Positions 18,111-20,719 of a DNA stretch of 42,271 nt are shown piece after piece. This stretch comes from Solirubrobacteraceae bacterium. Lineage in GTDB: Bacteria; Actinomycetota; Thermoleophilia; Solirubrobacterales; Solirubrobacteraceae. The stretch spans positions 1 to 42,271 of the forward strand of contig JAUXSD010000134.1 of the NCBI GenBank assembly GCA_030681525.1. The letters run 5' to 3'. Under the pieces are notes generated by a model. It was not told where the DNA came from. It worked only from the letters and a program-made list of their open reading frames with translations, and ran no database searches. The position numbers and the translations under genes were made by a program. Every line of letters starts with the position of its first letter. Position 1 is the stretch's first letter.

Positions 18111-19436
18111 TTGATCGCGCTCCTGCTCAGCGCGGTCATCGTGCTGATCTTCCTGAACGGCTTCTTCGTCGCGGCCGAGTTCGCGCTCGTGCGCGCGCGG
18201 CGCGCCAAACTCGAGGAGCTGGCCGAGGCGGGCGACCGCAAGGCGCGGCTCGTCGTCGCGCAGCTCGACGACCTCAGCGAGTACCTGTCGGCCTGCCAGT
18301 TCGGCATCACGCTCGCCTCGCTGGGCATCGGCTTCCTCGGCGAGCCGGCGATCGCCGACCTCGTCGAGCCGGCGCTCGGCAGCCTGTCGCACGCGGTCGC
18401 GGCGCCGGTCGCCATCGCGATCGCCTACATCCTCGTCACGATCGGCCACATCACCGCCGGTGAGCAGGTGCCGAAGATCTACGCGATCGTCAACGCCGAG
18501 CAGGTCGCCCGCTGGATCGCGCGGCCGCTGAACATCTTCAACACGGTCATGCGGCCGTTCATCCACCTGCTCAACAAGGCCTCGAGCGCGATGCTGCGCC
18601 CGCTCGGCATCAAGGGCGACCACGACTTCGAGGAGGGCGCGAGCCCCGAGGAGGTCCGCGCGATCATCGCCCACGCGCACGCCGGCGGTCACCTCGACCC
18701 CGGTGAGGCGGGCATGCTGACCGGCGTCTTCCATCTCCACGACCAGCAGGCGCGCCAGGTCATGACGCCGATCCCCGCGGTCGTCACCGTCGACATCTCC
18801 GAGGACGTCGGCACCGCGATGCGGCTGTGCATCTCGACCGGTCACACCCGCCTGCCGGTGACCGAGGACCACAACCCCGACCGCGTCAAGGGCGTCGTGC
18901 ACTCCAACTCGCTGGCGCGGATCCTCATGGCCGAGGGCTCGGAGGCGTCGATCGAGCCGGCGATCAAGCCGGTGACGATCGTGCCCGAGACCAAGCCGCT
19001 GGACGACCTGCTCGCCGACCTGCAGCGCAACCGCTCGACGATGTCGGTCGTCGTCGACGAGTACGGCCGCGTCGCCGGCATCGTCACCGTCGAGGACATC
19101 ATCGAGGAGATCGTCGGCGAGATCGACGACGAGACCGACCCCGCCGGCGGCGACGTGCGCCGGCTCGCCAACGGCGACTGGTACGTGCGCGGCCACGTCG
19201 CGATCACCGACCTCGCCGACTACGACCTCGGCCTGCCGGTCGACAGCGACGCCTACAACTCGATCGGCGGCTTCGTCTTCGCCAAGCTCGGGCGGCTGCC
19301 CAAGCGCGGCGACACCGTCAACGCCAACGGCTACTCGATTCGCGTCGAGTCGGTTCGCGAGAACCGCATCGAGGCCGTCCGCATCCGCGAGCGGCGCGCC
19401 GCCGCGGCCGCCGAGCAGGAGGCCGGGACGGCGTAA
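18111..19436 (+). CDS. CNNM/CorC-family membrane protein with CBS domains
   Basis: This 441-residue protein has an N-terminal CNNM (DUF21) transmembrane domain (about 1-190, beginning LIALLLSAVIVLIFLNGFFVAAEFALVR). Two CBS domains follow (about 210-335, VMTPIPAVVTVDI and STMSVVVDEYGRVAGIVTVEDIIEEIVGEI) and a C-terminal CorC/HlyC domain (about 350-425). Relatives act in Mg2+ or Co2+ efflux and are often mislabelled haemolysins. The TTG at 18111 is the only start consistent with the first helix. The spacer from the preceding hairpin to the TTG is 90 bp. Confidence 0.92.
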   Translation: MIALLLSAVIVLIFLNGFFVAAEFALVRARRAKLEELAEAGDRKARLVVAQLDDLSEYLSACQFGITLASLGIGFLGEPAIADLVEPALGSLSHAVAAPVAIAIAYILVTIGHITAGEQVPKIYAIVNAEQVARWIARPLNIFNTVMRPFIHLLNKASSAMLRPLGIKGDHDFEEGASPEEVRAIIAHAHAGGHLDPGEAGMLTGVFHLHDQQARQVMTPIPAVVTVDISEDVGTAMRLCISTGHTRLPVTEDHNPDRVKGVVHSNSLARILMAEGSEASIEPAIKPVTIVPETKPLDDLLADLQRNRSTMSVVVDEYGRVAGIVTVEDIIEEIVGEIDDETDPAGGDVRRLANGDWYVRGHVAITDLADYDLGLPVDSDAYNSIGGFVFAKLGRLPKRGDTVNANGYSIRVESVRENRIEAVRIRERRAAAAAEQEAGTA

Positions 19437-19526
19437 GGCGCGTGGGTGCGCTGTCGCGTCGCGTTCGCGTAGCCGTCGGCGAACTGCGTCTCTGACGGGT
19501 GAGTTTGCCTGGCGGCGGCGTGCGCG

Positions 19527-19663
19527 CCGGGTTCGGCGTGGTCGTGACGCGCCGGGTACGGATATCGGACCGGGCGCGTCACGATGCCCCGCCCGAGGAG
19601 GGGTGAGTCGGTTTACTCGCGCATAGCGCGATCTAGCCGACTCACCCCCGACGCCGAACCCGG
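19527..19663. other. Nested inverted repeats forming a three-way junction; candidate structured RNA or DNA element
   Basis: An outer 13-bp perfect stem pairs 19527-19539 (CCGGGTTCGGCGT) with 19651-19663. It encloses two long hairpins. Hairpin A pairs 19543-19553 (CGTGACGCGCC) with 19573-19583 and continues imperfectly to a GATATC centre. Hairpin B pairs 19600-19611 (GGGGTGAGTCGG) with 19637-19648 and holds an inner TCGCGC/GCGCGA stem (19617-19622/19626-19631) with loop ATA. Nothing here codes for a convincing protein on either strand. It could be a small RNA, the 3' end of the CNNM transcript, or a recombination or protein-binding site. Confidence 0.6.
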
Positions 19664-19872
19664 ACGGAGCGCCCGCACACGAACAGACCCACCCCTCATC
19701 GTGCCGTTCGACCACGTGATCGCGGCGACATGGCGATGCGAAGCGCACCCGATGCCACGCCGTTTACGCAAGTTCCGCCGCCGGGTCGCGTTGGAAGCCA
19801 TATGCCGCCGCCCGTGGGAAGGCGGTGGTCCGGCACGGTGGACCGGGGTGGGTCCGCCGCAGCCAAAGACAT
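19664..19872. other. Remainder of the non-coding gap after the CNNM gene
   Basis: The whole gap 19437-19909 carries no credible gene. This part holds short inverted repeats such as CCGCC/GGCGG near 19806-19824 and GGTCC/GGACC near 19827-19844, but no clear promoter or RNA family that I recognise. Confidence 0.35.
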
Positions 19873-19899
19873 GACGGGCCCGCTCCTGGCGGGCCCGTC
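19873..19899 (-). terminator. Perfect 10-bp hairpin after the 3-hydroxyacyl-CoA dehydrogenase gene
   Basis: GACGGGCCCG (19873-19882) pairs with CGGGCCCGTC (19890-19899) around a 7-nt loop, 11 bp after the stop codon of the minus-strand gene. Its symmetry means it could work on both strands. Confidence 0.7.
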
Positions 19900-19909
19900 G
19901 TGCCTTACC

Positions 19910-20719
19910 TCAGCGTGCGTAGAACTCCGGCGGGTACAGGCCGCGGCCGGCCTTGCGGCCCAGCGCGCCCTCGGCGCACAGCGCGCGCAGCGAGTCGGGC
20001 ACGGCGGCGCCGATCGCGTCGCCGATCGCGACCGACACGTCCAGCCCGATGTAGTCCAGCAGCGCGATGGGACCCATCGGGTGCGCCGCGCCGAGTTGCA
20101 TGCAGGTGTCGATCGATGCCGGCGGCAGGCCGGTCTGCTCCATGAAGTCCACGGCGCTGAAGAGGTAGGGAAACAGCAGGCGATTGACGACGAAGCCGGC
20201 CAGGTCGGGCACCTCGACGGCCTCCTTGCCGAGGTCCGCGCACAGCGCCGCCGCGCGCTCGCGCGTCGCATCCGATGCCGCGGCGGGATAGGCGAGCTCG
20301 ACGAGCTTCATGCGCGGCACGGGGTTGAAGACATGCAGCCCGACGAACCGCTCGGCGTGGCCGGAGGCCGCGGCCAGCTCGGAGACCGACAGCGACGAGG
20401 TCGTCGTGCTGAGGACGGCGTCGGCCGAGGCCAGCTGACCGAGGCGGCCCAGCAGCTCGCTCTTCAGCGCGGTGTCCTCGGAGATCGCCTCGACGAGGAA
20501 CGTCGCGTTGGCCAGCGCGTCGAAGTCGGTCGTGACGGTGACGTTGGCCGGGTCATAGCCCTCGCCGAGCTTGTCGCAGGCCTTCGCGATCGCCTTCGTC
20601 GCGCGCGACGCCGAGGCGTCCGAGCGGGCCCACAGGAGGTGGCCTGCGCTCGTCGTCGCGCAGGCCGCCAGACCGGTCGCGATCGCGCCGCTGCCAGCGA
20701 TTCCCAGCTTCTCTCCCAC
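19910..20719 (-). CDS. 3-hydroxyacyl-CoA (3-hydroxybutyryl-CoA) dehydrogenase
   Basis: This 269-residue protein has an N-terminal Rossmann domain (GIAGSGAIATGLA) and the C-terminal helical domain of the family. The catalytic region LHVFNPVPRMKLVEL holds the His. The stretch EVPDLAGFVVNRLLFPYLFSAV and the final GRKAGRGLYPPEFY are also typical. It oxidises (S)-3-hydroxyacyl-CoA with NAD+ in beta-oxidation or butyryl-CoA metabolism. The GTG at 20719 has GGAGG about 5 nt upstream. The divergent thiolase would use its product, acetoacetyl- or 3-ketoacyl-CoA. Confidence 0.92.
   Translation of the reverse strand: MGEKLGIAGSGAIATGLAACATTSAGHLLWARSDASASRATKAIAKACDKLGEGYDPANVTVTTDFDALANATFLVEAISEDTALKSELLGRLGQLASADAVLSTTTSSLSVSELAAASGHAERFVGLHVFNPVPRMKLVELAYPAAASDATRERAAALCADLGKEAVEVPDLAGFVVNRLLFPYLFSAVDFMEQTGLPPASIDTCMQLGAAHPMGPIALLDYIGLDVSVAIGDAIGAAVPDSLRALCAEGALGRKAGRGLYPPEFYAR

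Follow-up and report, generated by a model that had tools for sequence, protein, structure and literature searches.

The window is the whole stretch of 42,271 nucleotides analyzed here, contig JAUXSD010000134.1 of a Solirubrobacteraceae genome (assembly GCA_030681525.1; hereafter G000). It contains a CNNM/CBS gene and a convergent 3HCDH gene separated by a non-coding gap at 19437-19909. A first-pass annotation, made from the letters alone, had described nested inverted repeats in this gap, after the CNNM gene, and all of the claimed stems (a 13-bp outer stem, two inner hairpins and a further 6-bp stem) were found at the place given for them. Hairpin A consists of 12 pairs followed by 3 and 2, and hairpin B of 14 pairs, including one G-T, around an inner stem of 6 pairs (19617-19622/19626-19631). 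The opinion that this depth of pairing is beyond chance was borne out on folding both strands (z about -8 on either): the RNA minimum free energy (MFE) of 19520-19670 is -105.6 kcal/mol on the plus strand (z -8.11) and -102.7 kcal/mol on the minus strand (z -7.91), and none of 200 shuffled sequences was as low in either case. DNA folds of 19440-19756 gave z values of -6.95 and -6.99, with 0 of 100 shuffles as low. While the stems are real, the annotated interval of 19527-19663 covers only the core of a longer fold-back repeat of about 307 bp (Table 1), which starts about 7 bp past the CNNM stop codon; its ends were defined by the complementary GGGTGCGC and GCGCACCC, and the exact insertion ends may differ. 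No Rfam family matched the window at gathering scores, and relaxed scores yielded nothing convincing, the best sub-threshold match near the element having an E-value of 0.32.

Table 1. Features of the fold-back element and its neighboring genes (positions in the window)
Feature	Position	Strand	Basis
CNNM/CBS/CorC_HlyC gene	18111..19436	+	
Complete fold-back element (hairpins A and B within the outer arms)	19444..19750	+	Dispersed copies aligned over the span; missing from orthologous gaps
Left arm; elsewhere encloses different central hairpins	19444..19526	+	Matches of model R1
Left terminal repeat GGTGCGCTGTCGC	19445..19457	+	Identical or similar sequence at the left end of further copies
Outer stem of 13 pairs, 5' side	19527..19539	+	RNA fold, core covariation
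Hairpin A, near-perfect palindrome; also solo; flanks an AbiEi-type gene (contig C271, locus L026)	19542..19584	.	Own-genome matches
Hairpin B; same family as the paired hairpins directly 5' of AbiEi-DUF559 genes	19600..19648	.	Covariation, B model
Outer stem of 13 pairs, 3' side	19651..19663	+	RNA fold, core covariation
Right arm, imperfect complement of left arm	19664..19750	+	DNA folds, aligned copies
Right terminal repeat GCGAAGCGCACC, complementary to left end	19738..19749	+	Pairs with left end in DNA folds
3-hydroxyacyl-CoA dehydrogenase gene, convergent	19910..20719	-	

The genome that holds the window is an incomplete assembly of 4.56 Mb in 352 contigs (95% complete). A BLAST search of 19500-19690 against it returned 59 matches, which we merged into 37 places besides the window's own, some of them single hairpins or weak matches. 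Widening the query to 19400-19800 revealed a longer unit with complementary ends, and in the aligned copies the left and right arms pair with each other and enclose hairpins A and B. For the left arm, a 110-position model (R1) had at least 71 matches in G000 and at least two in G002, while the remaining five genomes of the genus had none, all among 150 candidates scored per genome and with the complementary right arm able to match R1 too. The hairpin B model, searched in the same way and counted on both strands, had at least 78 matches in G000, 69 in G005, 24 in G006, 19 in G003, 15 in G001 and 11 in G002, and none in G004 among the candidates scored. A pattern scan for hairpin A in a named genome collection, which may exclude the own genome, matched two contigs, both from the MAG Actinomycetota 0707_bin21, and nothing else. 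The gap between the CNNM and 3HCDH genes could be located in five congeners (G001, G002, G003, G004 and G006), and the element is missing from all five, as judged by eye and by length, with the right part of the gap conserved there.

A structured RNA of this gap, which the first-pass annotation had favored, is not supported, because copies are dispersed in large numbers and the orthologous gap of five relatives lacks the element; a stand-alone non-coding RNA was dropped on the same grounds. Repeats at scattered sites had been named in advance as counting against that reading, and the copies in the own genome are just such repeats. The other reading offered there, a DNA-level site, holds in the form of a dispersed repeat. 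The window element is one insertion of a dispersed repeat family. Elsewhere, nine site sets were picked by hand from locus pairs with shared genes as likely being one site each; in most of them, two or three genomes carry repeats at roughly matching positions, and the repeats at shared sites often differ in type (hairpin B alone in G001, arms and B in G000); in several other such locus pairs, the repeats lie on different sides of the common gene. As a separate observation, B hairpins occupy the same position in G005 (L109 1487-1538) and G001 (L128 1542-1593), precisely between two genes; their stems differ and each is self-complementary, so that the hairpins either were inserted twice or share an inherited site that has undergone concerted change.

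The non-coding repeat represented by one copy in the window is a mosaic. Hairpins A and B are each found solo at many places as well, and the same arms enclose quite different hairpins at L065, L068 and L071. Gene borders are approximate, being called by a heuristic based on G+C per codon position, and this heuristic underlies the extragenic placement, the positions of solo hairpins and arms, and the palindrome-score comparisons in the genus and family given below. Within this limit, 26 of the 34 left-arm copies checked have their left end facing a same-sense stop codon, 24 of these within 60 nt, while six face a start codon and two have no called gene; the 34 were drawn from the R1 matches, the rest of which were right-arm matches, weaker or not fetched. 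Solo hairpins were found at both gene ends and gene starts. Two further arrangements were seen: the arm element at L065 1080-1400 has a central palindrome of GCTAGCACC-type repeats, unlike A and B, and different hairpins (GTGTGTCGAAT type, A, and B type) stand side by side at three genome places (L036, L039 and L042).

Covariation among 19 copies of hairpin B was 0.233, compared with 0.113 (sd 0.016) after shuffling (0 of 500), and it dropped to 0.024-0.092 with slid partners; for 11 element cores the values were 0.157 and 0.104 (0 of 500). In the 11-core set, 8 of the 17 pairs of hairpin A are invariant, and the number of hairpin B pairs changed on both sides (8, with 7.1 expected; 184 of 500) is not unusual. 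The compensatory changes that the first-pass annotation had envisaged for homologous loci do exist, but between copies inside one genome, and they may stem from selection or from palindrome correction in DNA. Covarying stems are a mark of structured RNA, but corrected DNA palindromes would show the same, and a curated Rfam family match, another such mark, was not found. In a wobble test of three helices, G-T outnumbered A-C pairs (34 vs 21) and hairpin A showed the reverse (2 vs 10); strand assignment from wobble pairs was dropped because the sign is inconsistent between helices.

One family recurs among the genes that flank the repeats, namely AbiEi_4 with DUF559/MTES_1575 (L026, L040 and L129). 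PF13338 was present in all seven genomes of the genus, and AbiEi_4 domains, counted irrespective of nuclease fusion, in 48 of 61 genomes of the bacterial family (E 1e-6). Two B-family hairpins stand directly before the AbiEi domain in four of 30 fetched loci (L157, L158, L165 and L167), and these B-paired AbiEi-DUF559 loci come one each from G000, G001, G002 and G005. The L026 gene has hairpin A on its 5' side and a further copy spanning its stop codon; this gene is a diverged member, with a Pfam AbiEi_4 score of 23.7 bits (28 in another search; cut-off 25), one conserved D replaced by H, and no DUF559 match at an E-value of 0.01. For one gene-adjacent hairpin of G000 (L157a), the five nearest of the 55 dispersed hairpins compared (L030, L034, window B, L020 and L010) are all from G000, with small margins that do not hold on average. 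The gene-adjacent B hairpins of G000 are on average no closer to their own dispersed copies (0.65 and 0.69) than to those of other genomes (up to 0.68 and 0.74); those of G005 are nearer their own dispersed copies, and the result for G001, about equally near to G003, is ambiguous.

A CTGGTTTCGTGACG-like motif was also observed between the B hairpins before the AbiEi-DUF559 gene (L040 1930-2260, L129 1400-1720, L165 and L167), with similar stretches by eye upstream of other paralogs; it is perhaps a promoter. Similar proteins lie near repeats at 11 loci (L014, L018, L027, L040, L074, L101, L102, L105, L119, L144 and L149), which may simply reflect a common protein family.

Among 58 AbiEi loci, 44 encode 260-340 residues from domain to stop; two of these (L175 and L180), whose C-terminus looked frame-shifted, were dropped, and G35, E195, D226, E237, H244 and D253 are invariant in the 42 aligned full-length proteins. 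The AlphaFold model of the L157 protein (pLDDT 94.3) matches the AbiEi antitoxin 6y8q (E 3.8e-6) and the catalytic domain of I-Bth0305I (3r3p; E 0.009, probability 1.00), and a profile search returned 3hrl and 3r3p. PADLOC models recognized the N-terminal part as AbiEi in three of three proteins, and Pfam DUF559 scored above its cut-off in six of nine, below it in L157, and was not found in L026 and L174. The partner gene has both the winged-helix domain and fold of AbiEi and the catalytic residues and domain of EDxHD/DUF559; its DUF559 nuclease domain we take to be EDxHD/Vsr-like. Direct searches of the open-licence literature retrieved no reported role for AbiEi-DUF559 proteins, and the titles and abstract openings of the best-ranked matches there held no link between DUF559, AbiEi or EDxHD and dispersed palindromes. 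AbiEi is reported to bind a pair of 23-bp inverted repeats with 3 bp between them at its own promoter (PMC7319586), a two-repeat site of about the size of the gene-start palindromes here. By homology, the present protein likely binds the palindrome, and its nuclease would spread it.

To compare genes with and without this domain, a stem score was computed in the 170 nt before the AbiEi domain, with a threshold of 14 or more. This score was adopted in place of the MFE because the latter was swamped by G+C; as a measure of upstream hairpins, the rejected MFE had put four of 29 loci beyond the 5% control energy (p 0.009). A scan for ungapped stems proved too strict and was likewise set aside: it detected a palindrome in only three of the 30 loci of the genus, that of L175 lying far from where the gene starts. 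Within the genus, the median score was 11.5 for 29 AbiEi genes and 9.5 for 53 control genes (p 1e-5), with 9 of 29 and 0 of 53, respectively, reaching the threshold. At the family level, 27 AbiEi genes scored higher than the few controls available (n=8; p 0.008), and the threshold was reached by 13 of 27 compared with 1 of 8. Half of the genus and family AbiEi loci with enough upstream sequence (28 of 56) have a gene-start palindrome above the cut-off, and the other 28 fall below it. Phylum-wide, four of 27 loci with enough upstream sequence scored 14 or more, none of them with a DUF559-like motif; none of the five loci with this motif reached 14, compared with one of 11 controls. The link between palindrome and gene is general in the family, and it was not seen outside the family among the phylum-wide loci scored.

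An in-frame ATG lies at the palindrome center in 12 of 18 listed family loci and in none of 10 listed genus loci. Ten of the 28 palindrome loci have a second own copy, four of them upstream and six at the 3' end of the gene. An in-frame stop codon falls exactly at the palindrome center in L199 and L213, inside the palindrome copy in L206 and L208, and 7 nt past it in L204; in L207 the reading frame followed continues beyond the copy. With start or stop codons thus placed in palindromes, the complete unit would seem to be the gene together with its palindromes, and the solo palindromes would seem to be copies that have spread. The 28 palindromes gave three cross-matches to other loci. Twenty gene-linked palindromes, all AbiEi-linked and hand-chosen as clear, were queried in 5 and 13 genomes; up to 40 candidates were scored in each genome, and ten matches that were partial or at junctions, half of them foreign, were set aside. 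Nineteen of the 20 are dispersed, each with at least two additional copies in the genome of origin, and the exception, L198, has partial matches only; together they have at least 124 further own-genome copies, some beside the gene itself (e.g. L164, L178 and L206). Across 184 foreign palindrome-genome pairs (28 + 156), the matches listed include a single one covering at least 60% of a palindrome, that of L203 in G062, which is of the same genus.

The explanation that we favor, by a modest degree and as a whole, takes hairpins A and B as repetitive extragenic palindromes (REPs): REP-like palindromes with a non-RAYT partner, an AbiEi-DUF559 protein that would bind and probably spread them. Palindromes of the A and B types would belong to genes whose products join an AbiEi-type winged-helix module to a DUF559 nuclease domain at the C-terminus, the gene start lying in or next to a master palindrome copy and, in some loci, the stop codon in a second copy. 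The protein would bind the two half-sites of the palindrome, as AbiEi does at its promoter, and the nuclease would nick or cut at the palindrome or in an extruded hairpin; repair would then copy the palindrome, sometimes plus the gene, to new places. Copies would persist where they are harmless, often directly past stop codons, and copies beside or within each other would give rise to the nested structure. The sequences themselves establish the dispersal in nearly private sets, the mosaicism, the empty orthologous gaps, the covariation, the linkage to the genes and the conserved nuclease residues; binding, cutting and propagation, like any effect on host genes, are what we infer. No partner gene was found for the outer arms, which counts against this explanation, as do the 28 AbiEi loci below the cut-off, the few palindromes of the ungapped scan, the phylum-wide loci with a DUF559-like motif, the lack of a central ATG in the listed genus loci, the average distances of the G000 hairpins and the divergence of L026. 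A nuclease-gene palindrome of G005 (L161 1433-1496) was seen to contain GGTGCGCTTTTC, which resembles the arm ends GGTGCGCTTCGC and is a possible clue to the partner of the arms.

Compensatory changes between copies, together with the many left ends just past same-sense stop codons, would also suit a 3'-UTR or terminator structure selected at the RNA level. We consider this unlikely: the element is missing from the orthologous gap, which has a terminator-like hairpin of its own, no T tract was seen by eye, the strand pointed to by wobble pairs is inconsistent, and hairpins also occur upstream of genes. That the palindromes are sites of AbiEi-type autorepressors, with dispersed copies serving as extra operators or decoys and the nuclease doing something else, e.g. 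defence, is possible, if doubtful. Binding of AbiEi to two inverted repeats at its own promoter, as described in PMC7319586, agrees with it, as do the overlap of palindromes with gene starts and the sites where two or three genomes have repeats in a common position. Under such a scheme, however, it is hard to place arm copies that lie mostly past stop codons, solo hairpins at gene ends as well as starts, second copies that straddle the gene's own stop codon in some loci, and tested copy sets that are nearly private to one genome among the matches listed.

Bacterial MITEs and ERIC are non-coding repeats with complementary ends, and terminal inverted repeats common to many copies are found here as well. 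An ordinary MITE whose parent insertion sequence, with GGTGCGCT ends, went unseen is nevertheless improbable in our view, as the cores vary freely and A and B occur solo; by eye, no target duplication was seen at the ends, which the empty site places only approximately. BIMEs are mosaic groupings of REPs, and RAYT is a Y1 HUH transposase. In size, extragenic place and mosaic, BIME-like grouping, the repeats resemble REP elements moved by a RAYT, and they are short palindromes in many extragenic copies; but PF01797, the sole transposase family searched, gave no hit in the incomplete own-genome assembly (352 contigs), while the control was positive in 5 of 14 named genomes, and no GTAG/CGTC tag was noticed by eye in hairpins A or B. 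We consider RAYT-driven movement very improbable.

With REPs and BIMEs, REPtrons and TIRtrons, the present system shares short, dispersed extragenic palindromes grouped into larger structures. In REPtrons and TIRtrons, as described in PMC3733652, a protein gene is bordered by its own repeat, which in some cases extends into the 5' or 3' end of the gene, and flanking repeats that overlap gene ends are known for RAYT genes. By analogy, the system would work like a REPtron, with the gene of a DNA-processing protein bordered by a palindrome dispersed around it. The protein here is, however, an AbiEi plus DUF559 nuclease and not a Y1 HUH transposase, and in several loci the start or stop codon lies exactly at the palindrome center. 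We have not filed the system as a REPtron because no RAYT (PF01797) gene was found in the own genome and the enzyme is of another class. CGTC-tagged REPs are described without a dedicated transposase in PMC3733652; they resemble the present repeats in being dispersed palindromes without a RAYT, whereas a gene partner is visible here. The AbiE type IV toxin-antitoxin system has the same N-terminal winged-helix family and a palindromic site of about 2x 23 bp at the gene start, but here AbiEi is fused to a nuclease domain and the palindrome is dispersed. With EDxHD homing endonucleases (I-Bth0305I), the protein shares the catalytic fold and residues; it differs in the AbiEi module in front and in a gene bordered by its own palindromes.

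For the spread of short palindromes in bacteria, still an open matter, RAYTs are one enzyme class proposed, and some REP families are reported without one in PMC3733652. The present analysis links private dispersed palindromes, one gene at a time, to an unrelated class of nuclease, and each AbiEi-DUF559 gene supplies a candidate substrate for binding and cutting, which offers these proteins a possible role. If our explanation is true, the AbiEi-DUF559 nuclease could be the kind of partner that is missing for RAYT-less REPs. For the wider proposal of a RAYT-independent second class of bacterial palindromic mobile element, in which an AbiEi-DUF559 (EDxHD) gene bordered by its own palindromes, with start and stop codons at their centers, would seed private families in each genome, we regard the arguments for and against as evenly balanced.

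The remainder of the gap in the window, 19763-19899, is a separate structured stretch. It had no Rfam match at gathering scores, and the covariation term of RNAalifold is +0.25, so that paired changes give the fold no support. The stretch is conserved in six members of the genus with a mean column identity of 76%, its motifs CGCAAG, GTGGGA and GGGGTGG are invariant, and it ends in a terminator-like GACGGGCCCGC/GCGGGCCCGTC hairpin. It is a candidate conserved RNA.
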